Assembly (NCBI GenBank): GCA_001567305.1
Contig: JYPD01000014.1
Coordinates: forward strand, 1-64,000
Source: a candidate division WS6 bacterium OLB21
Lineage (GTDB): Bacteria > Patescibacteriota > Dojkabacteria > B142 > OLB20
Direction: 5' to 3'
Length of the DNA: 64,000 bases
Part shown: one piece after another, positions 1-38,600 of the stretch
Layout of the letters: every line of letters starts with the position of its first letter
Position numbering within the stretch: the stretch's first letter is position 1
Program-made: the position numbers and the translations under genes
The notes under the pieces: generated by a model
The model's input: the letters and a program-made list of their open reading frames with translations, nothing else
The model's database searches: none
Told to the model about the DNA's origin: nothing

Positions 1-1146
1 ACTATTAAAAGAATAAGAGGTTCCATAAGCTTTGTCAAATTGCTTGTGATTTCTTCAACCTGATCTTCGTAAAATCTAGCTAAATCACCCAATATCTTAT
101 CTAAAGCTCCTGTCTGTTCACCTGTTGAGATCATTTTTAGAACTATTAGCGGCACTACTTTGTTTCTGCCTAATGGTCCTGCAATTTGTTGTCCTTTCGA
201 TACTTCTTGAGCAGCATAGAACAAAGCCAATTTGAAGTGAATGTTTTTAGTGCCTTACCAGTCGCTGTCAAGGCATCAATTATTGGAACTCCGCTTTTAA
301 TCAACATCTGTAATAATCTGACCATTTGTAAGACTTGTGATTTTGCTTGCAGGTCGCCAAAGACTGGAACTTGCAGAAGCAGTTTGTCAATAAATTTCCG
401 TCCTGAATCGGTTTTATAATAAGCACGAAATCCGAGAATCGTGCTGGTGACGGTTACAAAAGTTATTAATAATCCTAACGGATCGCTAAAGAAATTACTT
501 ATTGTAACCAAGGCCTGAGTTATTGCAGGTAAATCACCACCGCCTAGATCGGCGTAGAGATCTTCAACCGCAGGAATCATAAACACTACCAGTACTAACA
601 CAACAATGATTATTGCCAGAAATATTACAGCCGGATAGATCATCGCCCCACGAATTTTTCCGTTTATTTGCGCCGTTTTTTGTAAATCCTCGGCAATCTG
701 CTGAATAATCTCGACTAGATTTCCCGATTTCTCTCCGGCATCAATAAGACTCAGCTGTAGATCGTCAAATATTGCCTTGTTTCTTCCGAAGGAGGTCGCC
801 AAAGGCAGTCCTGATTGAATATCTTTATAAACTTGAGTAAGTTGTTTTTTAATCCAGTGTATTTTGTTTGCTCTACTAGAATTTCTAGCGAACTTGCAAC
901 TGGCAGACCAGCAGAGAGCATTGTTGCTAACTGCCTTGCGAAAACAACTTTTTCGTTAAGCGGAATTCCTCCAATCTGGATATCGTTTAAGTTGCCAAGA
1001 TTTAAACCAATCTTTTGATTAATGGAGATAATAATTAACCCCTGTTCGTGAAGAAACGAAGCAACATCTTCTCTGGTTTGAGCCTGCCTTTCGCCAGTTA
1101 CTTGTTCACCAGTAGCCTTTGTTGCTGTATATGTGAAGACTGCCAT
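1..1146 (-). CDS. pilC: PilC, type IV pilus inner-membrane platform protein (partial, two frameshifts)
   Basis: Type II secretion F / PilC family polytopic membrane protein that anchors the PilB and PilT motors in the inner membrane. The N-terminal part opens with MAVFTYTATKATGEQV, typical of PilC, and contains the first cytoplasmic T2SSF domain; a membrane segment rich in I/V/L and the second T2SSF domain follow. The reading frame breaks twice: at the T-run 845-850 (one base seems missing; the corrected frame reads LKKQLTQVYKDIQSGLPLA) and at the T-run 244-248 (one base missing; corrected ALKNIHFKLALFYAAQEVSK). The gene continues past the left edge of the window. Its ATG overlaps the pilT stop as TAATG, which indicates translational coupling. 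The family is certain; whether the breaks are real mutations or sequencing errors is inference, and errors are more likely. Confidence 0.9.
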
Positions 1147-2939
1147 TAATTAGATTTTAACAAACTTAATAACTCATCGGGTTTAGCTGTATAGTTTTGA
1201 GCAGCCTCTACAGTCAAGTCGCCTGAGCGAATTAGTTTAACCAAGGATTTTTCAAGTGTGATCATCCCAAGTTCAGCACTGGTTTGAATCATATTGTCTA
1301 TCTGATAAGTTTTCCCCTCTCTAATTGCATTCTTTATTGCTGCATTGGCAATCATGATCTCTAAAACTGCTTTTCTACCTCCTCTTTGAACCGGTACCAA
1401 TCTTTGTGCCACAACTGCCGAAATAACATTCGCAAGCTGGGCCCTAATTTGCGCCTGCTGTGCATCTGGAAAGACATCAATCATTCTGTCTATACTTTGC
1501 GCAGCAGAATTGGTATGTAGGGTAGAGAAGACTAAATGACCTGTTTCAGCGACTGTAATAGCCGAAGCAATTGTTTCGAAATCTCTCATCTCACCAACAA
1601 GAACAACATCAGGGTCTTCACGAAGAGCTGCACGGAGTGCTCTGCTGAAACTTTTAACATCTGTTCCGACTTCTCTTTGATCAACTAGTGATTTTGCTCT
1701 TGGAAATACATATTCGATAGGGTCTTCAATTGTAATTATATGTTTTGCCTCGTTAATATTTATCTCCTGAATTATCGAAGCTAGAGTTGTACTTTTACCA
1801 TGTCCAGTTGGACCAGTAACTAACACAAGACCATGAGGTAGTTTGGCAAAATCATAGATAACATCTGGAAGACCAAGCTCAGCAATAGTTCTAATTCTGG
1901 AAGGAATTAATCTAAATGCTCCAGCAAGTTGTTCCTTTTTATGATAAATGTTAACTCTAAACCTGGTTCCGCTCTGAATACTATGCGAGAAATCAATATC
2001 TAGATCTGCCTTCAAGGCTTCTTGCTGTTCTGGTGTCAAAATCGACTCAAAAAGCTCTCTAACTCTTTCGAGTTGCATAATCTGATTACCGATAGAAATC
2101 AGTTTGCCGTCAACCCTAAGCATTGGTGGATAACCGGTTGAAATGTGCAAATCAGAAGCATTTTTTTCTTCGGCATAGGCAAGAAAATCGTCCATCTTAG
2201 CTTTCTGAGCATAGTAATTCTCGCTTGCATCTGCAGGTTTAAGTGAATCAATTTGTGGAGAAGGTGTTGGAACCGCCTGCTTAGACTCTACAAGTTCATC
2301 AGCTTTCTTAAATATTTCCTCAACTGTCTCAGTCTGCTTTGCGGCACTCCCTGTAAGCTCTATGCCTCCCTGATTTAGGCTTGGAAGTGATTCCTTTATT
2401 TCCGGTTGCGGTGATGGGACTGTCACATTTGTCGATTCAGTATTATCTGACATTTGATTCAAATTAGCAGGAGCTTCTATGGGTTTAAGTTGTTCAGGCA
2501 CCTCGTTTTTAATTGTTGGAACTTGAGGGACTACTGGACTGGTAGAAGAGAAAGGTGATGTTGATGAACTCTGTGCAGTTTCTACAGGTGCCTCGGTTTT
2601 ATTGACATTGCTATCTAAAGGTTTTGCTAGGTTCAACTCGCCCATACCCAGGTTTTGAGTTTCTGCTTGTGGAATTTCTCCTGGTTGCATACTGGGAGCG
2701 GGAGTATCATTAAATTGAAACACTGTCTCTTTTGGTAGTTCTGTAAGAATCTCTGGGGCTGCCGATAATAAATTATTTGTAGTACTTGTATTGTTTAAAC
2801 CTGGCTGATTTGGTTGCTGTACCGGTTGCACAGGCATACTTGCTGCTGTTGAAGGTGGCAAATTTGGCATTTGCCCAGCAGGGGGCTGAGTAGGATTTGA
2901 ATTTGGTTGCTGCGGACTACTTAAATCAATGAAGGGCAT
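1146..2939 (-). CDS. pilT: PilT-like twitching motility ATPase with long disordered N-terminal extension
   Basis: Hexameric ATPase of the PilT/VirB11 family that powers pilus retraction. The catalytic core begins near residue 247 (MDDFLAYAEEKNASDLHIS). It carries Walker A GPTGHGKSTT near residue 375 (His where most relatives have Ser or Gln, still within GxxxxGK[ST]), Walker B DVVLVGEMRD near 443, and the His box GHLVFSTLHTN. No Cys zinc motif is present, as expected for PilT rather than PilB. The 597 residues far exceed the usual 350 or so, because residues 1-245 form a Pro/Gln/Ser/Thr/Asn-rich, probably disordered extension. It lies between pilB and pilC, 24 bases after pilB. Symbol from family resemblance; PilT versus PilU cannot be separated here. 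Confidence 0.9.
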   Translation of the reverse strand: MPFIDLSSPQQPNSNPTQPPAGQMPNLPPSTAASMPVQPVQQPNQPGLNNTSTTNNLLSAAPEILTELPKETVFQFNDTPAPSMQPGEIPQAETQNLGMGELNLAKPLDSNVNKTEAPVETAQSSSTSPFSSTSPVVPQVPTIKNEVPEQLKPIEAPANLNQMSDNTESTNVTVPSPQPEIKESLPSLNQGGIELTGSAAKQTETVEEIFKKADELVESKQAVPTPSPQIDSLKPADASENYYAQKAKMDDFLAYAEEKNASDLHISTGYPPMLRVDGKLISIGNQIMQLERVRELFESILTPEQQEALKADLDIDFSHSIQSGTRFRVNIYHKKEQLAGAFRLIPSRIRTIAELGLPDVIYDFAKLPHGLVLVTGPTGHGKSTTLASIIQEININEAKHIITIEDPIEYVFPRAKSLVDQREVGTDVKSFSRALRAALREDPDVVLVGEMRDFETIASAITVAETGHLVFSTLHTNSAAQSIDRMIDVFPDAQQAQIRAQLANVISAVVAQRLVPVQRGGRKAVLEIMIANAAIKNAIREGKTYQIDNMIQTSAELGMITLEKSLVKLIRSGDLTVEAAQNYTAKPDELLSLLKSN

Positions 2940-2963
2940 AGTTTTATATTAAAAAAATTATAT

Positions 2964-4769
2964 TTAACTGACAACTCTAAGTACTTCTTCGATAGTTGTT
3001 ACACCTTCCATAGCTTTCAAGTAACCATCTTGCATCATGGTGATCATTCCTTCTTTTACGGCAATCTTTTCTATCTCTTGTGCTGATGAATCTACAACCG
3101 TTAAAGAAGCAATACCTTCTGACATTTTCATTACTTCAAAGATTCCGATTCTGCCTTTATAACCACTGTCACCACATTGAGGACAACCTTTCCCTTTGTT
3201 TAAAAATATCTTACCACCATTTTTTTGCAAGATCGAGTCAATACTAAAACCGTTAATCTGTTCCAAAACTGTTTTAAGTTTATTAATTTCTTCTGGACTA
3301 GCTTCATATGAATATCTGCAGTTATCGCAGATTGTTCGAACTAATCTTTGTCCGGCAGCTAGTTCAAGAGTAGAGGAGAGTAAGAAGGGCTCAATACCCA
3401 TATCTTTAAGTCTTGGGATTGCTCCAGCAGCAGAATTGGTATGCAAAGTGGCAAGCACAAGATGCCCTGTAAGCGATGCCTGCACAGCTAATTCTGCAGT
3501 TTCTTTGTCACGAATTTCTCCAACGAGTATGACATCTGGGTCTTGTCTCAGAAAGGCCCGAAGTCCTTTGGCGAAGGTTAAGCCAACTTCGCTATTAACT
3601 TGAACTTGAGTGACTCCATCGATACGAATCTCGACTGGGTCTTCGAGTGTCATAATATTGATTTCGGGACTATTAATAATTTTAAGAGCACTGGCAAGAG
3701 TCTGGGTTTTTCCACTTCCTGTAGGACCTGTTACAAGCAAGATACCTTGTGATTTTTTAATTGCCTGCTGAAATAGTGCAAGACCTCTGCCTCGCATACC
3801 TGTTTTATCAAGCGTTAGGGTTCCTCCTCCTTTTGCAAGAAGCCTAATCACAACTTTTTCTCCATAGACCGATGGCATTACAGAAACACGGAGGTCAATT
3901 AATTCATTCTCTACTTTAATTTGAAATCTGCCGTCCTGAGGAACACGATGTTCATCTATTTTTAGATTAGATAAGATTTTAATTCTTGAAACAACAGGAC
4001 CAGCAAGCTTAACCGGTAGAGTTAGCTTCTCTTGCAAAACACCACTAACACGATACCTAACTACTACTTTGTTTTCTCTAGGTTCAATATGAACATCAGA
4101 AGCCTTGTATTTTGCAGCGTATTCAAGAATCATATTCACAATTCTTGCAACAGGTGCTGCAGCAATATCACCTTGAATTTCTGCAGAGGCTATCGTGCCG
4201 GTAATTTCGACTACATCTCCAACATCTTGTAGTGCCTGGGTAACTTCTGACCCGATCTGAGCACCATACTTGGTATCGATTATGCTTTTTATAATGCTTG
4301 GATCAGCAAAATAAGGTTCGATTCTTTTTCCAACTACTGTCGACAAGAAACGGATTTTTTGCAGATCTAAAGGATCTGCCATAGCTACCTTAAGCCCAAC
4401 TTCAGTGTTCTCAAAAGCGACAGCAGAGTTTTGCTTGGCAAGTTTTTGATTTAAGAGGTTGAGAGTTTCGATGTCAATTCTTTGCGCGGCAAGGTCTACG
4501 AAAGGGATTTGGAACAACTTTGATTTCGCTTTAGCTAAATCAAGTTCAGAAATATACCCACCCTGAAGTAGAATCTGCTCAATGGGCTTGCCTGTATTCA
4601 CAGATTCAAATTTTACCTTCTTTAAAGATTCGGTGTTTAGAAGCCCGAGTGAAAACAATGAATCGGCCAGATTCACCTGTTGTGATGTATTAAGAGCATT
4701 GTTGTTTACGGGAGGCGCTTGTTGCTGTAATATATTACCACCTATAGCCCCATTATCTGAATTTGCCAT
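2964..4769 (-). CDS. pilB: PilB, type IV pilus assembly ATPase
   Basis: GspE/PulE/PilB family ATPase that drives pilus extension from the cytoplasmic face. An N-terminal MshEN-type domain (residues about 30-180) precedes the catalytic core: Walker A GPTGSGKTQT near residue 347, Walker B DVILVGEIRDKETAE, and His box GHLVLATLHTN. The zinc-binding tetracysteine is present as CDNC near 480 and CPQC near 530. Length of 601 is normal for the family. First gene of the pilB-pilT-pilC run and probably cotranscribed with it from the promoter at 4812-4840. A 9-base direct repeat lies directly before its ATG. Confidence 0.95.
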   Translation of the reverse strand: MANSDNGAIGGNILQQQAPPVNNNALNTSQQVNLADSLFSLGLLNTESLKKVKFESVNTGKPIEQILLQGGYISELDLAKAKSKLFQIPFVDLAAQRIDIETLNLLNQKLAKQNSAVAFENTEVGLKVAMADPLDLQKIRFLSTVVGKRIEPYFADPSIIKSIIDTKYGAQIGSEVTQALQDVGDVVEITGTIASAEIQGDIAAAPVARIVNMILEYAAKYKASDVHIEPRENKVVVRYRVSGVLQEKLTLPVKLAGPVVSRIKILSNLKIDEHRVPQDGRFQIKVENELIDLRVSVMPSVYGEKVVIRLLAKGGGTLTLDKTGMRGRGLALFQQAIKKSQGILLVTGPTGSGKTQTLASALKIINSPEINIMTLEDPVEIRIDGVTQVQVNSEVGLTFAKGLRAFLRQDPDVILVGEIRDKETAELAVQASLTGHLVLATLHTNSAAGAIPRLKDMGIEPFLLSSTLELAAGQRLVRTICDNCRYSYEASPEEINKLKTVLEQINGFSIDSILQKNGGKIFLNKGKGCPQCGDSGYKGRIGIFEVMKMSEGIASLTVVDSSAQEIEKIAVKEGMITMMQDGYLKAMEGVTTIEEVLRVVS

Positions 4770-6052: not shown

Positions 6053-7991
<1,939 letters not shown>

Positions 7992-25005: not shown

Positions 25006-25677
25006 ATGTTTTTGAAGTATAAAAAATACCTAACAAACTTTTTTTATTTCGCTGCCGGTTTAAGTTTGCTGGTAAGTATTGTATTAGTTGTTTGGCTTCT
25101 GCAAAAGACAGACGGAAATATTTTAGGACTCCATTGGTGCAACGGCATATCTCCCTGTACAGAAGGTCCGCAACCCCCCGTAACAGTTACTGCATTCATA
25201 CGAATTGTAGATGTTAAATTCACTGTTTATCCCGAAAAAAGGGAGCCTGCAATTGGAAACTGGGCTACCATAGCCGATGTTAGACTTCAAGATTGCAACA
25301 ATTCAAACAATTTCACTTATAATGCCATTGTCACAAATTCAATTGGTAAGGGCACGGTTGTGATCCCCTCTTCTAATCCTTTACCTGAAGGTGACTATAG
25401 ATTTTTCATTCGTGGTTTTTCTCATCTAAACGAAGAATTCAACTGTTATACATTAGATACTATCGGACCAGATATTGACCTGACACTTGAAGGCAAAGAG
25501 CTTCTTGCGGGCGAGGTTAGTAACAGTTATGATAATTATGTAAATTCCCTAGATATGTCTGTGCTTATAGGTAAGCTGTTTACTAATGACTACAAAAGCG
25601 ATCTTAATCAAGATACTTTGGTAAATGGCCTTGATTTTGGCAACCAAATTTACAACCTATTTAAAAATGGCGACTAA
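25006..25677 (+). CDS. Membrane-anchored protein with C-terminal dockerin-like module
   Basis: 223 residues. One helix (about residues 12-34) anchors or exports the protein; a beta-rich domain with paired cysteines spans 40-165; the last 58 residues look like a type I dockerin. The second calcium loop is canonical (DLNQDTLVNGLDFGNQI, with Asp, Asn, Asp at spacing 1-3-5 and Asn/Asp at 9 and 12). The first (EVSNSYDNYVNSLDMSVL) keeps VNSLD but lacks the usual Asp-x-Asn-x-Asp. It stands 3 bases before the cohesin-like gene. Dockerins bind cohesins with high affinity; pairing of these two neighbours is an inference. Confidence 0.75.
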   Translation: MFLKYKKYLTNFFYFAAGLSLLVSIVLVVWLLQKTDGNILGLHWCNGISPCTEGPQPPVTVTAFIRIVDVKFTVYPEKREPAIGNWATIADVRLQDCNNSNNFTYNAIVTNSIGKGTVVIPSSNPLPEGDYRFFIRGFSHLNEEFNCYTLDTIGPDIDLTLEGKELLAGEVSNSYDNYVNSLDMSVLIGKLFTNDYKSDLNQDTLVNGLDFGNQIYNLFKNGD

Positions 25678-25680
25678 TCG

Positions 25681-27600
25681 ATGAAACTATCATATAAAAT
25701 TCTGCTTTCTTCAATAACTTTCTTTTTGTTTTTCTTAATTGGAAACAGCAAAGCACAAGCAGGGTCTTTTTACTTCTCACCTGCTAATGCCAACCTGATT
25801 CAAGGCTGTATCAATGAAGTTGTCGTCATGGTTGATACTGCCGGTGCAAATTCAAACGCAGCAGATATTGAAATTACTTATAATCCTGCTCAGATACAGG
25901 TCTTAGATTCAGACCTTATCACTCCTGGGGTGCAGGTTATCCCCGGTAACGCCTATCAGGCATATGTTTACAACAATGTAACACCCGGGGTGATTAAAGT
26001 CGCTGCTGGTTCTTTTATCGGTGACTTGAACGGAGTTGCAACGCTCTTAAAAATACAATTTCAATCAATTGGAGCCACGGTAAGCTCTGGTTTTACAATT
26101 AACTTTACAGGACCCGGCAATACACTTGATAGTAATATTGCAGAAACAACTACCAGCGATGATCTTTTAACCTCAGTAACAAACGGATTTTATACTTTCT
26201 CTAGTGGAAGTTGCATCGCTGACACTACACCACCAACAATCAGTTTTACAAATCCAGTTAGTAATGCTTCTGGTGTAGGGCCGTCTGCAAATCTAGTTAT
26301 CACCTTGTCAGATAATCAAAGTGGCGTTGATATTGACTCTGTTGTTGTAACCTTTAATGGAGTACCCTACCAAAATGGCGATGCAGGATTTAATTTTACC
26401 GGAAGCCCAGGAAGCTATGTCATCACGATTACGCCAGTTGGAGGAATTCCTCAAGGGGTTGCCTCAACTCTTGTAGTTCAGGCAAAAGATCTTGCCGGAA
26501 ATAGCGCTAGTAGAATCATGAACTTTAATGTTCCGGCAGCCCCGATAGTTACTCCCGGACCAACACAACCGCCTGTCCAGCAAGATACAGTTGCCCCAAT
26601 TATTACACCAGAAGACCCTCAAGATGGGTCACAGGTTGAAATAAATACAAATCTAAACATCAATATCACAGACGATGCCAGTGGTGTTAATCTCGGAAGT
26701 CTGATTCTTATATTGAACGGTAAACAGTATAAGTTTAATAGTCCACAAGTAAGTTACTCAGGCGATCCAAATAATTACACATTTATACTTGATCCAGAAT
26801 CACTTCTGCCAGCAAACAGTCTTTCATACTTAACGATTTTTGTTAAGGACAATGCCGGCAATGCATCAATAAAGACTATTAGCTTTGGACCAGACCTGAG
26901 CAAACTACCCGACACAGATACTCCAGATTGTCTATGCCCTACCCCTACATCACCTCTACCTGATTCATATACTGATGTTGTCCGAATCTACCAATCTATA
27001 AACACAATACTACCATCAAACCTTAAATCCTTAGGCTTGCCGGGTTTCATCTCAGCTTTATTAGCCTTACTAACTGTGCTTGCAATGCTCAGCCTGCTAA
27101 AGATTCCAGATCTACTTCTTTTCTTGTTTACCAAAGGAAACAATCGACCTTGGGGTGTTGTTTATCAAGAGGATAGCGGAGAACCCGTTGCGGGAGCAAA
27201 AGCAATATTGAAAAGTATGGAAACAGAGGCATTTATAGAAAAATCAGTTACCGACTTTCAAGGAAGATACCAATTTGATCAACCTGCTGGTGATTATATG
27301 TTGCATGTTTCAAAGAACGGTTTCGGCGAAAAGGAATTAGGCATTAGGCACGAAATAAACAGTCAAATTGATTACATCGACCTGGCCGTTGATAATACCG
27401 GACCTATAATGCTAGTTATGAACTTTATTAAAAAGATTATCAGGTTTATCCAAAAACAACATCTGGCTTTCGCCTCTGCAGGTCTTGTCTTATCAATCGT
27501 ATCTTATATGTTTGTGCCGACAGCCATTGCTCTGCTTCTAACAATCTTCTATAGTCTTTGGATACTAATCGGGGGTACACTAACTTTTGTAAAGTCTTAA
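25681..27600 (+). CDS. Cohesin-like surface protein with Ig-like domains and membrane helices
   Basis: 639 residues. Signal peptide (1-27, ending KAQAG), then a cohesin-type beta domain (about 30-175: INEVVVMVDTAGANSNAAD, then VLDSDLITPGVQVIPG and a closing VTNGFYTF). Two Ig-like repeats follow, each opening DTTPPTISFTNP or DTVAPIITPEDPQDGS and joined by a Pro/Thr linker. A membrane helix lies at about 457-475, then a CarboxypepD_reg-like fold (WGVVYQEDSGEPVAGAKA, GRYQFDQPAGDYML), and two more helices at the end. The arrangement places the cohesin and Ig modules outside the cell. It follows the dockerin-like gene by 3 bases and converges on the histidine kinase gene. Confidence 0.8.
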   Translation: MKLSYKILLSSITFFLFFLIGNSKAQAGSFYFSPANANLIQGCINEVVVMVDTAGANSNAADIEITYNPAQIQVLDSDLITPGVQVIPGNAYQAYVYNNVTPGVIKVAAGSFIGDLNGVATLLKIQFQSIGATVSSGFTINFTGPGNTLDSNIAETTTSDDLLTSVTNGFYTFSSGSCIADTTPPTISFTNPVSNASGVGPSANLVITLSDNQSGVDIDSVVVTFNGVPYQNGDAGFNFTGSPGSYVITITPVGGIPQGVASTLVVQAKDLAGNSASRIMNFNVPAAPIVTPGPTQPPVQQDTVAPIITPEDPQDGSQVEINTNLNINITDDASGVNLGSLILILNGKQYKFNSPQVSYSGDPNNYTFILDPESLLPANSLSYLTIFVKDNAGNASIKTISFGPDLSKLPDTDTPDCLCPTPTSPLPDSYTDVVRIYQSINTILPSNLKSLGLPGFISALLALLTVLAMLSLLKIPDLLLFLFTKGNNRPWGVVYQEDSGEPVAGAKAILKSMETEAFIEKSVTDFQGRYQFDQPAGDYMLHVSKNGFGEKELGIRHEINSQIDYIDLAVDNTGPIMLVMNFIKKIIRFIQKQHLAFASAGLVLSIVSYMFVPTAIALLLTIFYSLWILIGGTLTFVKS

Positions 27601-27606
27601 TGGCAC

Positions 27607-30003
27607 TTACTTGATGATAGGTGCTGAACCTTCAACTTGTTCCATTCCTGATAAAGGTATAGTCACATAGAAGGTTGATCCTTTCCCTACTTCAGATTCA
27701 AACCAGATCTTTCCATTAAACTTGTCCACCATAGACTTAACAATATAAAGCCCCAAGCCAGAACCGCTAACATCTAGCTGTTTAATATTATCGGCTCGGA
27801 ACATTTTTTCAAATACTCTATCTTGTTGATCTTTAGGTATACCGTAGCCTGTGTCGGAAATTTTGATTAGAATTTCTTCTTTAGAGTCATCGGAGCTTTG
27901 TTTAAGAATATCGAAACTAACAGTACCTCCGTTTGGCGTGTATTTTAATGCATTAGAAAGTAAATTAGACATTATCATTCTCAGGAGTTTTTCATCTGCT
28001 CTAATAGTTTGAATCTGATCGCTAAAATTATTATTAAGAATTATATTCTTCTCTTGAACTAGGTAATTAAATTCTTTAATTATATTTTCGGCAAGTTTAG
28101 ATATATTAATCTCTGTTGGCGTAATAGGAAGTGTTCCAAGCTCGATCCTTGAAACATCTAATAAGGAATTAATCAAATCTAACATTCTTTCTGTTGCTTG
28201 CTTAATCTCAGTTATGTATTCCTTATCAGAACCACTGTATTTTGAATCGAAATCCTGCATTAGCATTTCGATATACCAACTGATTGTGGTAATTGGAGTT
28301 CTAAGCTGATGAGATACCATAGATACGAACTCGCTTTTTGCTAAATCAATTTGTTTTGATTGTGTGATATCTCTCATAATCTCTACAGCTCCAATAATCT
28401 TGTTTTGAAAAACTACCATTGAGACTGTTGAGGCTATTGGAATTCTAACCCCATTGCTACTTAGTAGATAATATTCTCCCGTTTTGTTTGTTTGCAAAGC
28501 GACAGCTTCTTCTATCGGAGTTTTTGCAAGCTTGAGAATATTTCCCTTTGCATCTTTTCCTAAAATATTCATCACTTTGCTTACTGGTCTTCCGATAGCC
28601 TTGCTTGGATCTACACCAAGCATAGCGATTGCGGCTGGATTAGCCATTATTAGATTACCTTGCCTGTCTACTGCTAAGATACCTTCTCCAATTGAACCAA
28701 GGAAGGCCTCTGTTCTTGCTTTTTCTTCTTCTGAAACCTTTCTTGCTAATTCTACATCTTCCATAACATTCATAATCGCCATTTTTATTTCAGATAATCT
28801 GGCATTACTCTCCTCTAATTTGGACACCTTATTAGTAAGTTTCGCAGTAGCAGATTGAACGCGCATCTCGAGGTTTTGATTCATTTCCTGAAGATCTTTT
28901 GCCATCGCATTGACGGATTTTGCAAGTAAGCCGATTTCATCGTTCGAGCGCACTTCTACTCTATTTGTTAGGTTCCCGCGAGCAATCTGAGTAACCGTTC
29001 CGGTGATTGACTCTATAGGTTTAACTATTGTTCGAGTTAATAGACTGACTACAAGAAAGACAACTAGGAATAAGACTAAGTTTGACAGTATCAACTGATC
29101 TCTTAGTCTGTATACACCGCTAAGAATGACTTCTTCAGGTATCTCTTTAATAACTAGCCAATAGTCTGAATCTAGGCTTGGAAAGACTACTCTCTCGAAG
29201 CTATACAGACTAGCATCAAGAATAAATGTATCTCTAATATTGTTTTGTAAGGAATAAAGTTTGTCATCTAAAATGTTATAGATGTTTTCTCCTACCTTAA
29301 AGCTGTCAACTCTATAAATCTGTGAATTTGTGGCTAGTATAGTTCCGGAATCAGAAACAATGTATTCTGCGAATCTATTATTACTGCTTGTTTCATTTAT
29401 AAAGGGTGTTAGGTTTATATCTACAAGAAAGACAATATAAGCCGTTGTATTCCCGGATAGGGCTATTGGTCTTATAAAGTAGACTTCAGTAATTAGTTCA
29501 TTATTGTATTGATAAGTGAAATAATCGCTAATCGTTTGCCCCTCTTCTAGATCTGAAAGTACAAGAAACGGATCAGCATGCTTGATTAAATCATAAACAT
29601 CCTCAATAGATTGTTCGTTTTGCAGAAACGAAGGATTCTTGAAATCGTATAACGGATTTCCCTGTGAGTCTAAAAGAAATATCCTGCTGAGGTAATTCTT
29701 ATACTGGATAAAAGTATTGAAATCATTATCGATAACTTCTTGAGGCATATTATCCAAACTACCTAGAGTGGTTGTATGCTTAACGATGTGAGTAGCAAGC
29801 ATTCCAACCTCTTTTTCTATCTGTTGAAGGGCAGTTGTTATTGCTCTTGCTCGAACTGCTGTTGTGCTGACACTCTCGTTAATACTCTGATCTAAAGCAA
29901 GACTTGTCTGGTTTTGTATACTAAAATATGCCAACACAGACATACCTAAACCTAGGGTTAGTGAAAGAATCAGTGTTACTTTTGTAGATAGTTTAATTTT
30001 CAT
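27607..30003 (-). CDS. Sensor histidine kinase (Cache-HAMP-PAS-HisKA-HATPase)
   Basis: 798 residues. Helix 1 (about 8-30), a large extracytoplasmic double-Cache-like domain (about 31-300), helix 2 (about 305-328), HAMP (329-380), a coiled linker, a PAS domain (about 430-545, ILAVDRQGNLIMANPAAI), HisKA with phospho-acceptor His in SHQLRTPITT near 562, and HATPase with NLLSNALKYTPNGG, DTGYGIPKDQQ and GSGLGLYIVK. Complete and probably active. It overlaps the PAS/GAF gene by 11 bases and is the last gene of the filament operon, so the response regulator at 38188-38600 is a likely partner (inference). Confidence 0.93.
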   Translation of the reverse strand: MKIKLSTKVTLILSLTLGLGMSVLAYFSIQNQTSLALDQSINESVSTTAVRARAITTALQQIEKEVGMLATHIVKHTTTLGSLDNMPQEVIDNDFNTFIQYKNYLSRIFLLDSQGNPLYDFKNPSFLQNEQSIEDVYDLIKHADPFLVLSDLEEGQTISDYFTYQYNNELITEVYFIRPIALSGNTTAYIVFLVDINLTPFINETSSNNRFAEYIVSDSGTILATNSQIYRVDSFKVGENIYNILDDKLYSLQNNIRDTFILDASLYSFERVVFPSLDSDYWLVIKEIPEEVILSGVYRLRDQLILSNLVLFLVVFLVVSLLTRTIVKPIESITGTVTQIARGNLTNRVEVRSNDEIGLLAKSVNAMAKDLQEMNQNLEMRVQSATAKLTNKVSKLEESNARLSEIKMAIMNVMEDVELARKVSEEEKARTEAFLGSIGEGILAVDRQGNLIMANPAAIAMLGVDPSKAIGRPVSKVMNILGKDAKGNILKLAKTPIEEAVALQTNKTGEYYLLSSNGVRIPIASTVSMVVFQNKIIGAVEIMRDITQSKQIDLAKSEFVSMVSHQLRTPITTISWYIEMLMQDFDSKYSGSDKEYITEIKQATERMLDLINSLLDVSRIELGTLPITPTEINISKLAENIIKEFNYLVQEKNIILNNNFSDQIQTIRADEKLLRMIMSNLLSNALKYTPNGGTVSFDILKQSSDDSKEEILIKISDTGYGIPKDQQDRVFEKMFRADNIKQLDVSGSGLGLYIVKSMVDKFNGKIWFESEVGKGSTFYVTIPLSGMEQVEGSAPIIK

Positions 30004-31522
30004 CCTGATACCTTGCCAGTTGTTGTTTAAGTTCTTTCATACGAATCTCTCTACCGACCATAAGTCTGTTCACTTTTTCTAGTTCTGCGTTTCTCTTCTC
30101 TAGTTTTTCTTCACTTTCGTTTCTTTCGATGGCAAACATAATATTTTGTCCAACAATGCGCATTATGTTAGTCATGTCTTCTAGCCATCTTCTGGTTTTT
30201 GTTAGTTGCGTCATACCAATAAAACCCTTAACAATATTTTTTGTAATAAACGGAACTACAAGCATTGATTTAATGCCTAGGTTTAGGAATTCATCTCTCT
30301 CAAGAACTGCATCCTGTGGTAATTCATTAATATTTTCAAATTTAAAAACCTTGCCAGAAAGCAAAGTTCTATGCATATTTCGAAGAGTCGTTATAGGAAC
30401 CCAAACTCTATACTTATCAGGGATTTTCTTCTCTTGAGCAATGGCCCAGTCGTAACCTATGCTCATCTGACTTTGATCATCTGAATAAAAAAAGATGTAG
30501 AGCCTATCTACTCCAATAAATTTCCCGATTCTCTCCATGATATTAACTATACGGATTTGAAACTCATCTTTTGGAATATAAATTAGGCTCGAACTAATAT
30601 CACTGATTAACATTTGTAATGAACTTCTAACCTTTAGCTCTTGCTGGCTTTGATAAACATATGTTGTATCTATACCAAAGTGAAAGACAGTTTTCTTGCT
30701 TCCAGTCTCTGTTATAACTGTTCTTCTCCAAGATATTTGCCTAATATTTGAGGGGGAGATTGCAATAATATCGCTCTTCTGGCTTAAGACCGATTTACTA
30801 TCGCTTAAAAGCTTCTCATACTCACTTGCGTAATATTCTCTTTGATCGACAGGTGCGATAACATCAAGCCAATCGTTACCGAAAAGCTTTTTGCCATTTG
30901 CAAGTATCTTGTCTGCCATCGGATTAGAATAGATTATCTTGTAAGCACTATCCGTGACCAAGACCAAAGCATCTGAACTTTCGAGATAAATTCTAGATTT
31001 GTCCTTCTCAACCGACAACTGTTCTCTGACTTGTTGCTCTTGGGTAATATCCTTAACATAACTTATTATCGCCTGCACGCTTCCGTTATAATCGAAGAGA
31101 ACCGAATCAAATATGACTGTTCTGATACTACCATCTGCATGATTAATATTTGTGCGCAAACTGATTGGCTTTTTATTGCGTAGAATTGCAGCAATTGAAC
31201 CTAATACTTCTCTTAATGAATCTGGCGGGAAAAGCTTCAACATAGGGATCCTTTTACCTATCAAATCGTTCGGCGTATAACCTCCGACAGAAGCAAGAGC
31301 TTTATTTACTTGCAGAACTTTTCCGGTAGGCGAGGTAATAGCTATTCCGAAAGGGATTGAATCAAATATTGTCTGATATTTTTTTATTTCAAGCTCAAGA
31401 TTGTCGTTAGAAGCGCATTCTTTTTCTAATATAGCCACTAAGGGTTTGAGCAATTCTTGTTTATTGCTATCAATTTCTCCATAAGCCTGAAGAAGAATTT
31501 GTTGGACCTTATTTTCTGACAT
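29993..31522 (-). CDS. PAS-PAS-GAF sensory protein without kinase domain
   Basis: 509 residues, cytoplasmic. PAS 1 at about 45-165 (DSIPFGIAITSPTGKVLQVNKA), PAS 2 at about 175-285, GAF at about 305-465 (GVDRLYIFFYSDDQ and a late KGFIGMTQ), then a coiled coil to the end (EKLEKRNAELEKVNRL). There is no HisKA, HATPase, GGDEF or EAL. Its stop overlaps the start of the histidine kinase by 11 bases, so it probably feeds that kinase. Ligands unknown. Confidence 0.88.
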   Translation of the reverse strand: MSENKVQQILLQAYGEIDSNKQELLKPLVAILEKECASNDNLELEIKKYQTIFDSIPFGIAITSPTGKVLQVNKALASVGGYTPNDLIGKRIPMLKLFPPDSLREVLGSIAAILRNKKPISLRTNINHADGSIRTVIFDSVLFDYNGSVQAIISYVKDITQEQQVREQLSVEKDKSRIYLESSDALVLVTDSAYKIIYSNPMADKILANGKKLFGNDWLDVIAPVDQREYYASEYEKLLSDSKSVLSQKSDIIAISPSNIRQISWRRTVITETGSKKTVFHFGIDTTYVYQSQQELKVRSSLQMLISDISSSLIYIPKDEFQIRIVNIMERIGKFIGVDRLYIFFYSDDQSQMSIGYDWAIAQEKKIPDKYRVWVPITTLRNMHRTLLSGKVFKFENINELPQDAVLERDEFLNLGIKSMLVVPFITKNIVKGFIGMTQLTKTRRWLEDMTNIMRIVGQNIMFAIERNESEEKLEKRNAELEKVNRLMVGREIRMKELKQQLARYQDEN

Positions 31523-31546
31523 CTGGCAGTATTGATATCTATATGA

Positions 31547-32665
31547 CTAAAATTCAGCTACCTCTTCCCAACTCTTAATGATGATCTCAGGATTTATCTG
31601 AACGGTTTTAATCTTAATTCTTCGAACGGCTTCTCCTACAGTTGAGGTCACTCTAATTTCTTTGTTTGGCTGAGTATTTAATTGACATTGCGTGTATAAC
31701 AAACTAATTTCTGCAGGTGTTAGCACTCTATCCCAAATATCTAGATTATCGATTAGGCCACTCCATGGTTCTGCACCAAGAACATCTTTTGCTCCTCTAC
31801 CAACTAGTAAAGTCGATGCCCCTGCGATTACACCAGGCACTCGTGGCCCCAAAAAAAGTTGTACCAACAAGGTTACCATTTACAAAAAGCTGAATATCGT
31901 CTCCGTTCTCCCAGGTAAGAACCAAATGTTGCCAATCCGTTGTAGTGATATTCGAAGTAGTTTCCATTTGTTGAACAATATTGCTCACACCATTAAAAAT
32001 GGTTACTCCAGCCTTAATTACCTCTGTACCCCCCCCCATAAAGACCGCCAGCATCGTAACGCATACCAAACACATCATCGTCACCGTTAGGTGGAAATGT
32101 TATTAAGAAACCTCTGTCTGTGTTAATCGTATCTGACTTTATCCAGGTTGAGATAGAAAATGCAGTCATGCCATTAATATAATCTTCTCCGTCTGCATCT
32201 TCTAGGAAATCGTTTATTCCATCGAAACTTGCTGCAGAGTCGCACTGACCAATTACATCTGCAGTTGGACAAGCACTCCCTGAACACTCGAAGTGTCTGT
32301 TATTACCAGAACTATCTAAAAAGGTAGTTGAAGCAGGGGGATCATCAAACTTGAGAGAAAGAACATTCCCTCCTCCATTATCTCCAACCTCCTCTGGGAT
32401 ATCAGTTATTACATATTCGCAGGTTCCGTCTGCAAGAGATGAGTTTGTTGTTCCGGTAATTGATGGATCGTTTCTAATAGCATCAAGTGCTCGGTTGGCA
32501 CAGGCATCGTGAATAGCTCTTGCTGATGTGCTTTCAACTACTAGATCCGTGGTATTTACACTCGATGTACCCAACAGGATAATGCTCACAAGAAGGGTTC
32601 CCGCAACAATGCTAATCAGAATCACTGTAACTAGTGCGATGTATCCATTTTTTTTTATCTGACAT
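31547..32665 (-). CDS. Pseudopilin-like protein with LamG/concanavalin-like domain (three frameshifts)
   Basis: The N-terminus GYIALVTVILISIVAGT is a GspK/PilX-like pilin helix without the usual Glu at position 5. A LamG/Laminin G-like jelly-roll follows (LSLKFDDPPASTTFLDSSGN, SAASFDGINDFLED, FSISTWIKSD, HLVLTWENGDDIQLFVNG, IDNLDIWDRVLTPAEI), then a short tail. Three homopolymer indels split it: T-run 32648-32656 (start), C-run 32029-32037, and A-run 31851-31857; each needs one base less. The corrected start ATG at 32665 overlaps the preceding pilin gene by 11 bases. LamG domains bind glycans, so a ligand-binding filament component is suggested. Confidence 0.8.
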
Positions 32666-33164
32666 TGATGCTTGCGTAATAAGTTTGAGTATAGTCATTC
32701 TCTGATCTGCCATCTGGATTTACATAGCTAAGAGTTAGGGCCACCCTAACTACACCTTTGGTTCCCGGTCTTGATAAGTTAGTTACAAGAAAATTATCAA
32801 CCGATACTCTGTTCGAGCTTAAATTAACGGGAGGAAAGAATTTCTCTGTCATGCTAAGTGTGTTTCCACTCAAGGCAATTGTAGTTGGATCAACTGCGGC
32901 TGTTACCATATCGAGTTGAATCTGGTTACTACTAAGTCCTGCAGAAGGTAATATGATTGCTTCTGAATCACGAACCGATTGAGATATCAACTGTAGTATC
33001 TGCATAGCTTGCTGATCGACTTCTGCAACTGTGGCTGCCCGTGCTCTGGCAAATATTATCTGCGTAAAGACAAGAGTTATTATAGTCAACACAACAGCGG
33101 CTATCGCTGTGTAAAGTAGCACTTCAATTAATGTAAAAGCTTGTTTGTGCTTGTTATGATCCAT
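32655..33164 (-). CDS. Pseudopilin (GspJ-like)
   Basis: 169 residues with a class III prepilin start: MDHNKHKQA then FTLIEVLLYTAIAAVV, Glu at +5 of the mature protein and Ala (not Gly) at -1. After the helix comes a GspJ/PulJ-like beta domain (QIIFARARAATVAEVDQQA, then ISQSVRDSEAI). Its ATG overlaps the corrected stop of the preceding gene as TAATG. Member of the four-gene pseudopilin set. Confidence 0.85.
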   Translation of the reverse strand: MDHNKHKQAFTLIEVLLYTAIAAVVLTIITLVFTQIIFARARAATVAEVDQQAMQILQLISQSVRDSEAIILPSAGLSSNQIQLDMVTAAVDPTTIALSGNTLSMTEKFFPPVNLSSNRVSVDNFLVTNLSRPGTKGVVRVALTLSYVNPDGRSENDYTQTYYASINVR

Positions 33165-34679
33165 TAATTTGGTTGTAGTATATAAAACTCGTTACTATTA
33201 TCCTGATTTGTCAAAAATATTCTATCAATAGATGGCTGATAAAAAAATTCCTGTAGCATTACCAGGCAAGTTCAAATCTCCCACGAAAACAGGTGAAGCT
33301 GGAGTTGTGTAATCTAAAACCAGAAACTCTTGGGCTGCGGACTGATTAGCAACAAAAAGTCGATTAAATAATGGGTCATAAGCTAGGTCGTTCACCTGGC
33401 CACCCGTGCTATAGGTACTCTGGACCACAAGAGATGTTGGTGTAGAGGCACTAACTGCAACTAGGGTGCCATCAGCTCTGCCAACAAACATTTGTGAACC
33501 ATCCATAAGAATAGTTCGAGCAATACTCCTTCCAGCAAGATTCAATGAACCGGCTGCAGAAATTGAACCCGGATTAGTTATATCTAAAATCTGAATCTCT
33601 GCAGAACCGCTGTTTGTTGCCAAGTATGCGTAGTTTCCGTAAATTGCAATATCGTAAACTGTGTTTGGAATATTAAAGCTACCTAATAAAACCGGTGAAG
33701 CCGGGGTGGCAATGTTGTAAATGTAAAATTCTGGCTGTCCACCGCTGACTCTACCAGCATAGAGCCTTGTACCATCAACTCTAACAGCATAAATGTCTCG
33801 ATTTGTAGCTAAATCGATATTACTTGAATTCGTTGGCGCATTTGGATTTGTAACATTAAAAACACGAATCTCTGCATTATTTGCAGACGAAGCTAAATAA
33901 AGATAATTTGCTCCACTGTCAGCCAACATGAATCCATTACTGGCAGGAGATGTAGTTCCGAGAGGAGCAGGTGATGCCGGATTTGAAATATCAAATATTC
34001 TGAGTACAGATGCTAGCTGCAATACATAAGCAAAATTACCATTAACAACAACATCGATAGCATCATTATTTCCTGCAAAGTTAACCGAAGTAGTTACTGC
34101 TGGATTAGCCCAACTAGCGGTTGGTGTTGGTGATGGTGTTGGCGTCGGTGAATCTGTTGGTAACGGAGTTGCTGATGGTGTTGCTGTTGGTGTCGGTGTC
34201 GGTGTATTTGTTGGTGTTGGGGTTGGAGTTGGTGTAGGTGTCGGTGTTGCCAGTCTGCCCCAATCGCTGATTTCCGTTGATATTGTTACAGATCTGTTTA
34301 TACCCGTTGGTTCTTGGCTCCAGTTGACAACTGCTGTAACCTGCTTTCGATAAGCGTCAATCGAGCTTACGGTTATGCTTCTGCTATATTCCCCTACTGT
34401 ATCGGAAGAACCACTTAGAGCCCAAACACCTCCGGAAATTGTGATACCATGAACCCCGTCAGGTAGGTTTGAAAAGTCTTCTTCGGCAATATTTCTTGCA
34501 GCCTCTATGGCTTCGTCGGCTAAGAATGAGGCTCTGGCAGCATTGCCCGAAGCATATATTGATTCTTGAGAGAAAGAAAGTAAGGCAACAACAGAGAATA
34601 TTAATAACCCTAGCAATGCTAAAGCCAAAAGAACCTCTACAAGAATTGCTGCCTTGAATTGTCTCTTTTCTTTTCTCAT
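33164..34679 (-). CDS. Pseudopilin fused to a LVIVD-type beta-propeller (one frameshift)
   Basis: N-terminus MRKEKRQFKA then AILVEVLLALALLGLL is a GspI-like pilin helix with Glu at +5 and Ala at -1. After a pilin head comes a Thr/Pro linker (PTPTPTPTPTPTNTPTPT and more, about 35 residues), then a propeller of LVIVD-like blades, each with FAYVLQLASVLRIFDIS / YLYLASSANNAEIRVFNVT-type strands. The stop at 33225 is premature: removing one base from the A-run 33241-33247 extends the last blade with QPSIDRIFLTNQDNSNEF and ends at 33164. The start is taken at 34679; 34691 is also possible. A filament tip displaying a propeller is the inferred role. Confidence 0.82.
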
Positions 34680-34680
34680 T

Positions 34681-35115
34681 TTAATAATCAATTACTCCTC
34701 TATTATTTATACTTATTACCCATTGCTCGGACTCTGGATTTGTTATTGTTATTGATCCAGTATTTGATGTATTGCCTATTACGGGATTAAAAATTACTTC
34801 GCTTAATCCGGTGAATGCAAGCTCGTTAGAAACAGTTGTAATCTCATCAAAGTCAGGATTTCTGGTTAAGTAAGTTTGACCTCGAAAAACCGTAATCGAA
34901 CCGTTCTGGAAATATACCCCCCAATATGAATCGTTTTCGCCTGTTTGAGATAAAACCTGGGCCCTTCTTAACGATTGTACAGAAGCCTGTACCGCAACAT
35001 CTAAATCATTTGATCCTACAATCCGACCTAGAAATGGTGCCGATACTGCAAATATTAGAGAAAACAGCGAAATCGCCAGTAGAACCTCGATTAATGTAAA
35101 TGCTTTGATCCTCAT
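34681..35115 (-). CDS. Pseudopilin (GspH-like)
   Basis: 144 residues. Prepilin start MRIKA then FTLIEVLLAISLFSLIF: Glu at +5, Ala at -1. The soluble part (QASVQSLRRAQVLSQTGENDSYWGVYF) matches the GspH/FimT fold. It starts 4 bases after pilC2, and its stop precedes the next pseudopilin start directly. Minor pseudopilins of this type prime assembly of a pseudopilus or pilus. Confidence 0.88.
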   Translation of the reverse strand: MRIKAFTLIEVLLAISLFSLIFAVSAPFLGRIVGSNDLDVAVQASVQSLRRAQVLSQTGENDSYWGVYFQNGSITVFRGQTYLTRNPDFDEITTVSNELAFTGLSEVIFNPVIGNTSNTGSITITNPESEQWVISINNRGVIDY

Positions 35116-35119
35116 AATC

Positions 35120-36515
35120 CTAACTACCAGAATTATCTTCTATATAAATTTCTTCTACCCAGCCTCTAGGTTTACCGCTAGTATTAACGATTAAATACCA
35201 ACCATTACTTTTTCCTTCATATAACAAGGTTCTTTCTTCACTAATTGTCTCTATAACATTACCGTCTGGTTGATTGTATAACTCTATTGTTCGGAACTCG
35301 TCCTTAATGGTTATCTGTCTGAAGATCTGCATAGTAGGAACCGGTGTAGCTGTAGATGTATTAGTTGCACTGGTATATCTGGCCTGACCTACGCCACCCA
35401 CCAGATTATAAACAGGAAGGATCACAGATAATGCAACAAAAACGACTCCTAGCCAAACAGCTATCAACATTACTGGCTCAAGTAGAACAGAAAGATTTTT
35501 ACTTGATGTATCAATTCTGTCTTCAAATCTTTCTCCGATTTGTTCAAGAGAATGAACAAAATTTCCTGACCTTTCTGCAGCAATTAAAATCTGCTGTACC
35601 GGCAGAGGGATTATTTTTCCGATACCCGAGTAGCTTTTAAAAGTATCCGCAAAGGAATAGCCATCTTCTATTCTCATGGCCAGATGTAAGTAGAAATTTC
35701 GGTAATGATAGAAATCAGATGACTTTACGAGCGAATTGACGGCATCTAAGATAGGAAGACCTGCTTTAAGCAATGTTCCTAGTAGAAAACCCATTCTGGC
35801 AACTTCGATATTGGTAACAATTATTCTCAGTGGTTTTATAGCGAAAATCATTTTTTGACCAATATGTTTTGATTTTTCGCGCACAAACAAGAATCTGTAA
35901 AGAAGGATCACAAAAACAAAAATTAGAGGGACAACAATTATTCCGTATTGAGACAAGAAGTCACCTAACCCAATAAGGAGCGAGGTTATAACTGGCATCT
36001 CGATATTTAATGCTGAATATACTGCTGAAAGTCTTGGGATAACAAAAATAAATATTCCCAAACCTAAGACTAGAGATAATCCGAGTATAATCGCAGGATA
36101 AAGCATTGCCGAAAGAAGTTTTGAACGAAACATTCTATTCTTTTTGATCTGTTCAACAACCAAAGCAAGGTTCTCTGGTAACTGTCCGGATTCTTCACCA
36201 ATTCTGACGAAAGTTACCAAATAACTTTGTACAACTTTATTTCTATCCAGTGATCTCCAGAGGGGATAGCCGCTGTCGATATCATCGATTACGCTATCAA
36301 TTATTTCTAAGACCTGCGGTGTCCTGGTATCGAATCGGACTGCATGCAGTGAAGATACAATATCTAACCCTGAATCAACTAGCAAAGCTAGATTTTCGAT
36401 AAAATCTTCAAGCTCGCGAGATATTCCACCCAATGGAGATGTAAGAGCAAGAAGTAATCTTCTTATAGAAGGGCTTCTTCTTTTTTTTTGAGAATTCTGT
36501 GCTTGACCTTATCAT
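35120..36515 (-). CDS. PilC2/GspF platform protein with C-terminal SH3-like domain (one frameshift)
   Basis: Second PilC/GspF homologue. Two T2SSF domains (FVRIGEESGQLPENLALV and LIAAERSGNFVHSLEQIGERFED carry the conserved Gly-Glu-x-Ser-Gly pattern) with the usual three membrane helices. Unusually, a Ser/Thr linker (ARYTSATNTSTATPVPT) leads to about 65 residues like a bacterial SH3 domain (RTIELYNQPDGNV, then LLYEGKSNGWYLIV and GWVEEIYI), on the outer side of the membrane if the topology is standard. The start lies at 36515 (MIRSSTEFSKK) if one base is removed from the T-run 36481-36489; the open frame otherwise begins at a TTG at 36433. Confidence 0.85.
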
Positions 36516-36523
36516 CAGTTTTG

Positions 36524-38204
36524 TTATTTAGTTTTTGATTTAGTTTGCTTCGCTTCAGTAATCACTGGGGGAGCTACCCTAAGCACCTCTTCGATTGTTG
36601 TAATACCCTGTTTAACTTTAACGATTCCATCTTCAAACATAGAATGTGCTCCCTGCTCTACTGCTAATCTCCAGATATCTGCTGTTGAGGGATCTGCAAG
36701 AATAAGGTCTTTCATTTCTCGAGTCATGTTTATGAACTCGAAAATTGCTGATCTGCCAATATATCCAGAGTTATGACAAGCTGCACAACCTTTTGCCTCA
36801 TATAGGCTTACTTCATTTTCAGAGAAAACGCCTTTTATTGCCGGAAATTCTTTTTCGAGGTCTGCCCTTTTAACATTTTTACTTATTCTGCAAGTTTGGC
36901 AAATCTTGCGAACAAGTCTTTGAGCAACGATCAGTTCAAGAGTCGAGGCAAGCAAGAAAGACTCTACTCCCATATCTCTAAGTCTAGGGATTGCAGTGGC
37001 AGCATCATTTGCATGAAATGTAGACAAAAGTAAATGTCCTGTTAATGCAGCATTAACTGCAATCTCGGCAGTTTCTTCGTCACGGATTTCTCCGACAAGA
37101 ATGACATCTGGATCTTGCCTTACAATAGATCGCAACCCTTTAGCAAATGTTAGATTGGTCTGGGTGTTAACCTGAATATGGTTTACGCCCTTAATCTTAT
37201 ATTCAACCGGATCTTCAATTGTCGTAACATTTACCCCAGGATTATTTAAAATTCTTAGTACTGAGTAAAGAGTTGAGGTTTTTCCGGAACCGGTCGGACC
37301 GGTGACCAAAATCATTCCGAAAGGCCTTTTGGAGGCTGCTATTAAAAGATCTTGATCATTTACAGAAAGACCAATTTCTGAAAGAGAAAATCTTTTTACA
37401 TACTCGGATAAGATTCTGATTGTAATTTTTTCACCATCAAGTGTTGGAATTACTGACACACGCATATCAACAGCCTTGTCACCTTTTCGGATTCGCATTG
37501 AACCGTCTTGTGCTGAGGCATGCTCATCGATGCGCATATGTGCATTAACTTTGATCAGGTTTAAAATGTTTTCATAATATTTCTTTTCGATTCTGGCAGC
37601 TTCTTGAAGAACTCCATCAATTCTAATTCTGATGATAACTTCTGTCTCTTGAGGTTCAAAGTGGATATCTGACGCTCTATCAACTATTGCATCGTCAATA
37701 ATTTCCACTACGACATCGGGTGCAATACGATCGGATTGTTCGATAATCTTTTTAAACCTTGTTTCAAGAGGTTCACGATAATGGACAAGTAAGCTATCAA
37801 TGTCTTCTGGAAGTGCGTACGCCAGCTTAACATTTCTTGCCTTGTAGACCTGCTTTAATAAAGAAACAATCTCTGCATTAGTAGGATCGTCTGTGGCAAC
37901 TACAACTTCTGATTTATTGTCGACATATTGAACTACTCTGTACTTTTTACCGATTTCTTTTGGTATAGAAAGGACTTCTTGCCTGGAAGGAATATTCGTA
38001 TTCAAGTCAGCATAATTAATCCCTAGACTTTCTGCAACTGCTTGACCGATTAAATCTTTTGTAACTATTCCCTGGGAAAGTAAATACTCAAGAAGATCTC
38101 CTTTAGTTTTTGCAACAACCTTTTCGGCAGATACTAATTCTTCTTCTGAGATGTAACTGCCTTTTTAGCAGTATTTGACGGATTGCTTTATTGTCGAGTT
38201 TCAT
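36524..38204 (-). CDS. PilB2/GspE assembly ATPase (one frameshift near the start)
   Basis: Second extension-type ATPase. N-terminal MshEN domain, then VRYR-like DIHFEPQETEVIIRIRIDGVL, Walker A GPTGSGKTST, Walker B DVILVGEIRDEETAE, GHLLLSTFHAND, and tetracysteine CQTC plus CAAC. The clear frame begins at 38005, but upstream codons continue the MshEN domain without a start. Changing the T-run 38162-38166 by one base joins to ATG 38204 (MKLDNKAIRQILLK), which overlaps the end of the response regulator gene by 17 bases. About 560 residues corrected. Distinct from pilB at 2964-4769. Confidence 0.9.
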
Positions 38205-38600
38205 GGGGCAGATATTGATTAATTTGTTGAATTATCGCCGAGAGCGGCGTATTTGATTTGACATAGTATCCAACTGCCCCTTTGGATTTTGCTTTATCAA
38301 TATCCTCTTGTTGACTTAAATTTGAACTGACTATGATGGGGGGCAAATTTGGCTTTCCCTTTATTGCGTCAAGGAAGCCAAAACCATCAAGATTAGGCAT
38401 AATTAAATCAAGAAGAATAAGATCAAATTTATTTTTTCGAGTTCACTGATTGCCTGCATTCCGTCAGCTGCAACAGTAGCTTCGTAGCCACTACTAGTAA
38501 GCTTTAATTGCAAAGCTTTAGCTATCGGTCTTTCGTCTTCTACAATAAGTATTTTGAGTGCCACTTTTTTATTACCCTTTGATAGGTTAATAATAAACAA
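38188..38600 (-). CDS. Single-domain response regulator (one frameshift)
   Basis: CheY-like receiver of about 125-135 residues with no output domain. Acidic pair in ILIVEDERP, phospho-acceptor Asp in LILLDLIMPNLDG after adding one base to the T-run 38432-38437, Ser in IIVSSNLS (usual Ser/Thr), and Lys in YYVKSNTP. The start may be ATG 38600 or GTG 38564, which has AAAGGG upstream. Directly before pilB2 and 31 bases after dnaB. It may receive phosphate from the operon histidine kinase and modulate the motor (inference). Confidence 0.85.

Follow-up and report, generated by a model that had tools for sequence, protein, structure and literature searches.

Host recognition by patescibacteria is a standing question; for their pili, we found one genetic dissection, which was of a Saccharibacteria strain. 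Here we analysed a window of 64,000 nucleotides (contig JYPD01000014.1, C14 in our numbering) from the assembly of the candidate division WS6 bacterium OLB21, a patescibacterium of the candidate phyla radiation (CPR) (1.05 Mb in 32 contigs, 87% complete). Nine genes on the minus strand, running from 38564 to 27607, encode a response regulator (RR), an extension ATPase (PilB2), a platform protein (PilC2), four minor pilins resembling GspH, GspI, GspJ and GspK, a PAS/GAF protein and a histidine kinase (HK). What does a cassette that combines filament machinery, pilins with added domains and signalling genes build? We conclude, with a probability of roughly 60%, that it encodes a second, CPR-specific type IV pilus that is specialised for adhesion and is under two-component control.

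A preliminary description of the locus reported nine genes on one strand, in this order and with tight junctions, and this stands: all lie within 27607–38600 and each has family matches (Table 1). The RR and PilB2 reading frames overlap by about 17 bases, the GspI stop and the GspJ start are both contained in TAATG, 24 bases separate the GspK gene from the PAS/GAF gene, and the latter overlaps the HK gene by 11 bases. The features of the type IV filament superfamily are present, namely a PilB/GspE-type ATPase and a PilC/GspF-type platform (T2SSE and T2SSF matches) together with, on the cassette pilins, a class III signal and a long hydrophobic N-terminal helix (N_methyl motifs and structure models). 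We found no secretin, GspC, GspL or GspM among the cassette genes, to which this search was confined; in the relatives L030, L033, L043, L045 and L046, a major-pilin gene lies inside the cassette. Because the cassette has no secretin gene and many relatives carry a major-pilin gene there, type IV pilus fits better, judged from gene content, than ‘pseudopilus’, the preliminary name, which is not established.

The arrangement is conserved well beyond this genome. In a genome of the same family (G001), locus L027 has all nine genes and one further PAS gene, flanked by the same neighbours, and its PilB2 is 78% identical to that of the window. The order PilB–PilC–(GspH)–GspI occurs on one strand in 53 loci, with GspJ and GspK following in nearly all of them; these loci come from at least 27 families, besides named lineages (Saccharibacteria, Magasanikbacteria, Roizmanbacteria, Woesebacteria, Gottesmanbacteria, Levybacteria, Collierbacteria and Peribacteria). 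Loss of gene order in relatives had been set beforehand as a refuting test, and the order is kept. In a maximum-likelihood tree of 78 PilBs, made by a quick method and without bootstrap, all 44 of the 44 cassette PilBs, with PilB2 of the window among them, form one group (Shimodaira–Hasegawa-like approximate likelihood-ratio test, SH-aLRT, 97) apart from the PilT-linked PilB1, from the PilBs of both Saccharibacteria pili (type IV pilus 1, T4P-1, and T4P-2) and from ten PilBs of other phyla. Most of the PilBs in the tree were picked by their pilin neighbours and not by their own sequence, and the agreement between tree and cassette membership is therefore informative. The GspH–I–J–K order is kept across cassettes, with K subunits that lack Glu5; the four names follow gene order and weak similarity, as curated cut-offs are not reached. 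The cassette represents a second CPR pilus lineage, widespread and marked by a PilB clade of its own. The window’s own genome carries a further such cassette (L026, contig C22, 30000–46000), with genes for a major pilin, PilB, PilC, H, I with a propeller, J and K; this cassette has no RR and no HK, and is frameshifted too.

The pilins are modular in the sense that extra domains are grafted onto them, LVIVD on GspI, and LamG or CBM_2 on GspK. LVIVD is found on 41 of 61 GspI proteins, a proportion raised by how the seeds were chosen. An AlphaFold2 model, built on a 27-sequence alignment headed by the order-level GspI ortholog in L030, consists of a pilin helix (residues 19–73), a sheet (81–143), a short flexible linker and a seven-bladed propeller (161–469), with a mean predicted local distance difference test score of 91, and Foldseek searches with it return propellers from the PDB. 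The N termini of both fused pilins are pilin helices, as the preliminary description had supposed (the helix of the GspK model spans 10–69). A profile of the GspH family matches type IV pilins in the PDB (2.6e-10); the same searches yielded no relative of use for the I, J and K families, their weak matches being to the pilin helix or due to chance. In family f74 (L137, L142, L143, L144, L147, L148, L149 and L153), the cassette GspH is 880–1015 amino acids long and bears a large graft without a clear Pfam domain, so that an extra module occurs on H as well as on I. Proteins of about 640 amino acids with LVIVD domains in families f9 and f5 (L015, L017, L020, L024 and others) begin to match the GspI profile only at position 105, and have an N terminus that is different or more diverged.

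GspK-type proteins are about 135 amino acids long and share two invariant cysteines (alignment). In the window and in G001, the second of these cysteines is followed by an inserted LamG domain, beyond which the last pilin strands resume. Laminin_G_3 scores 1.6e-7 and 4e-6 on the pieces of the window’s GspK and 5e-19 on the intact L027 ortholog (Pfam); Foldseek with the GspK–LamG model gave nothing significant, as expected from low model confidence. Two CBM_2 domains (1e-49) occupy the same GspK site in L029 (genome G038), and the GspI of G001 ends in a further CBM_2. The pilin with LamG that the preliminary description pointed out is real, with the domain inside the pilin fold. We rejected LamG as a core component, as it occurs on GspK in only the window’s genome and G001 among 86 genomes of the class. 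From these comparisons, the core is GspH–I–J–K, in which I often bears a propeller; the modules that bind carbohydrate are lineage-specific grafts. A GspK-like protein of 1221 amino acids with nine DUF4215 repeats is encoded at L151:10029–13694.

PilC2 has an SH3b-like tail (window 35120–35400) that recurs in several families (L027, L031, L128 and L156); the SH3_3 match on the L027 protein (1.5e-5) is just under the Pfam cut-off. Given the topology of GspF, a tail that follows the last membrane segment, as this one does, should face the cell wall, and it could anchor the platform there.

A receiver gene immediately upstream of pilB, in the same orientation, is present in 23 of 52 cassettes (a frequency raised by the inclusion of RRs among the seeds) against a background of 9 of 326 genes (2.8%). 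In 17 of 53 cassettes, one of the next 7 genes encodes an HK (background, 6 of 326 genes; 1.8%), and no RR adjoins PilB in the 6 PilT-type loci examined. The PilB-adjoining receivers are 118–163 amino acids long, and their spacing to pilB, usually −17 to +33 bases (an overlap or a gap of up to 35), recurs in distant families. In an alignment, cassette receivers retain both the conserved Lys and the phospho-acceptor Asp, and domain searches found no output or DNA-binding domain on the cassette RR; the gene first described as a regulator encodes a bare receiver that overlaps pilB2. In Synechocystis, CheY-like PixE is reported to interact with PilB1 (PMC7690835), and this precedent, together with the overlap and the lack of a DNA-binding domain, suggests that the likeliest target of the RR would be PilB2 itself rather than transcription or control of the operon. 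The systems also differ: PATAN domains are present in PixE/PixG, whereas the cassette encodes a bare receiver beside pilB. The HK would be the partner of this RR. Its extracytoplasmic domain matches dCache_1 at 1e-7, below the cut-off. The earlier suggestion that the sensor pair at the end of the cassette provides signal input gains from the RR and HK frequencies, which are far above background, and loses in that the HK and PAS genes are variable accessories, the HK differing in position and domain make-up between loci.

Several observations weigh against an adhesive pilus under such control. The cassette of the window has neither a PilT gene of its own, the window’s PilT-type ATPase adjoining PilB1, nor a major-pilin gene; the only clear major pilin found in the assembly, which is 87% complete, is on C22 beside the cassette that lacks an RR. 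Because the cassette seeds had propellers and RRs, the frequencies of both are inflated, and in the GspK model confidence is low for LamG. The RR does not adjoin PilB in 29 of the 52 loci, so that its control is not essential to the machine. This count, the variability of the HK and the ability of free-standing receivers to serve phosphorelays favour an alternative, which we regard as unlikely, in which the adhesive pilus is correctly identified but the RR and HK control something else, such as the regulator of another operon, and adjoin pilB2 through shared timing of expression. The recurrence of the RR–pilB2 overlap or near-overlap in distant families favours a direct partnership instead, as does the PixE–PilB1 precedent.

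A DNA-uptake (Com-type) pilus, whose grafted modules would catch DNA or its wrappings, is a more doubtful alternative. The gene order resembles comGA–GB–GD–GE–GF–GG, in which ATPase and platform are followed by the minor pilins D(H), E(I), F(J) and G(K), but the cassette has no major pilin between platform and H and has grafted domains, an RR and an HK. The pilins have weak ComGD, ComGE, ComGF and ComGG matches; the equivalog cut-offs are not reached, no family matches at a curated cut-off and no ComEA or ComEC is encoded in the cassette. The LamG, CBM_2 and LVIVD modules point to ligands that are carbohydrates or proteins. Saccharibacterium TM7x (Nanosynbacter lyticus) is reported to be naturally competent, but its second pilus is dispensable for competence (PMC12206443). 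Least probable of all is a pseudopilus resembling that of the type II secretion system (T2SS), pistoning secreted proteins out of a monoderm cell with the modules as part of the export path: the best NCBIfam match of PilC2 is GspF, PilB2 scores with GspE too, the H–I–J–K set is present and T2SS parts are listed in CPR genomes (PMC9166423), yet the cassette has neither the secretin and GspC/L/M genes nor obvious substrate genes, PilB2 scores 480 bits with type IV PilB versus 467 with GspE (both under the cut-off), relatives have major-pilin genes, and large tip modules are unsuited to a short piston.

The adhesive type IV pilus that we favour has a counterpart in T4P-2 of TM7x, a second patescibacterial type IV pilus that likewise lacks its own PilT and has a minor pilin, PilX2, with a seven-bladed propeller; PilX2 is needed for normal host binding, which its deletion reduces (PMC12206443). 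That propeller is of the RCC1 type on a pilin that is GspK-like in related genomes, whereas the cassette has LVIVD on GspI, and T4P-2 has its machinery encoded apart from its pilins, in loci with pilMNO and with no RR or HK reported. We rejected membership of T4P-2 after RCC1 and PilB searches and the tree, in which the presumed Saccharibacteria T4P-2 PilBs (labelled so because no PilT-type match adjoins them, TM7x itself being outside the tree) fall in another clade. One Saccharibacteria genome (G431) carries both the cassette and a T4P-2-type system. The cassette is thus distinct from T4P-2, and probably resembles it in how it works. PilX2-like pilins with a GspK-like N terminus followed by an RCC1-type propeller are encoded in Saccharibacteria-class genomes at L208:7105–9489, L204:6930–8927, L206:6888–8723, L200:7873–9696 and L203:7585–9273.

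Similar modularity is found elsewhere. Like the window’s GspK, the modular pilins PilB and PilC of Streptococcus sanguinis, a monoderm, graft a ConA-like lectin onto a minor pilin predicted to be at the tip (PMC8179133, PMC9934059), and the lectin pilin PilC is modelled there (PMC9934059); the lectin is C-terminal rather than inserted, vWA takes the place of a propeller and no RR is coupled. Where the tip adhesin PilY1/PilC1 occurs with FimU–PilV–PilW–PilX, an H–I–J–K-type tip complex also presents a propeller, but PilY1 is a separate non-pilin protein, whereas the cassette propeller is fused to an I-type pilin. The 264 modular architectures listed in a 2021 survey include lectins (PF13385) and, from Falkowbacteria, a pilin that has IPR013211 in 12 copies (PMC8179133). 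We found nothing on LVIVD pilins in the literature searched. IPR013211 is presumably the LVIVD entry. In the open-access literature, with subscription papers and preprints out of reach, we also found no description of the operon, of the PilB clade or of the receiver, so the view that no described system has this exact set of genes holds for what was searched; its parts are less new, as minor pilins that carry a lectin or a propeller have been reported before (PMC9934059, PMC8179133, PMC12206443).

Several cassette genes are frameshifted in this assembly. We located the breaks by tblastn of intact proteins of L027, the closest relative, against the window, which placed frame changes in the RR, PilB2 and GspK (Table 1); the match to GspI ends at about 33270, with the end of blade 7 read in another frame, and a further frame change at the start of PilC2 (about 36495) was found by eye. 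Every frame change in the cassette is at or near a homopolymer, and three collinear pieces of GspK match the intact L027 protein at 56–67% identity. Outside the cassette, gyrB (6053–7991), pilC1 (170–1146) and an M16-like peptidase gene (21398–22673) are each split into two open reading frames in different frames. Because gyrB is essential yet split alike, the frameshifts are probably assembly errors, homopolymer indels across the assembly, rather than pseudogenes. Real gene decay was rejected as less likely, given that gyrB and pilC1 are split in the same way and that G001 has intact copies of the broken cassette genes.

Table 1 Features of the window, with window coordinates and supporting matches.
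Feature	Coordinates	Strand	Evidence
Single-domain (CheY-like) RR, probable GTG start	38188..38564	-	Receiver-family matches on both halves
Internal frameshift of the RR	near 38415	-	Intact 129-aa ortholog L027:13039–13428 aligns in two frames
PilB2 extension ATPase (MshEN + T2SSE), overlaps RR end	36524..38204	-	T2SSE 6e-120, MshEN 6e-10; frameshift near 38165
PilC2 platform protein, C-terminal SH3b-like tail	35120..36515	-	T2SSF 1e-41; frameshift near start
GspH-like minor pilin	34681..35115	-	N_methyl 9e-5, weak GspH match
GspI-like minor pilin, Pro/Thr linker, LVIVD seven-bladed propeller	33164..34691	-	LVIVD 1e-14; frameshift near 33260 at blade 7
GspJ-like minor pilin, conserved family	32655..33164	-	N_methyl 1e-5; weak ComGF/ComGD/ComGE/GspH matches
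GspK-like minor pilin lacking Glu5, with conserved Cys pair and LamG within pilin domain	31547..32676	-	Two frameshifts, near 32035 and near 31855
Cytoplasmic PAS-PAS-GAF protein, no kinase domain	29993..31522	-	PAS_4 5e-17, GAF 3e-7; ortholog in L027
Sensor HK: Cache-like extracytoplasmic domain, HAMP, PAS, HisKA, HATPase_c	27607..30003	-	HATPase_c 1e-27, HisKA 2e-18, HAMP 1e-15
Separate first pilus system, PilB1 and PilT	1146..4769	-	T2SSE matches; no RR adjoining

Two plus-strand genes face the cassette at 25006–27600. The product of the small one has a weak dockerin-like end (E value of 0.12), and the other encodes a 639-amino-acid membrane protein with Ig-like and CarboxypepD_reg domains that is syntenic in G001; a cohesin–dockerin pairing of the two was dropped, as the dockerin match reaches only that value and no cohesin was matched. 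At 51518–57292, a protein of 1924 amino acids has no significant Pfam match.

Assembly of type IV filaments starts at the tip, with an H–I–J–K complex. Modular minor pilins have been placed at the tip (PMC9934059). In the pilus that we propose, PilB2 and PilC2 would polymerise the filament and the GspH–I–J–K-type complex would nucleate its tip, where GspI would show its LVIVD propeller and, in the window’s lineage, GspK would show its LamG lectin-like domain too. These modules may bind a ligand, most likely a glycan (or a protein) of a host cell or surface. The HK would sense an extracellular signal through its Cache-like domain, tuned by the PAS/GAF protein, and phosphorylate the RR, which would turn the PilB2 motor on or off. 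The major pilin would be supplied from elsewhere, with the one clear candidate on C22, and any retraction would use the PilT of the first system.

More tentatively, we suggest that such cassettes may form a new CPR-wide class of type IV filament whose PilBs are a lineage of their own. A dedicated bare receiver, encoded beside the motor, would gate extension on an extracellular signal, and a tip that combines the pilin-borne propeller with interchangeable carbohydrate-binding modules would set host or surface specificity by lineage. The cassette is a distinct and widespread candidate for host recognition in Patescibacteria. Its swappable tip modules may allow the ligand of each lineage to be guessed from sequence, and the receiver beside pilB may be the means for a signal to trigger attachment.

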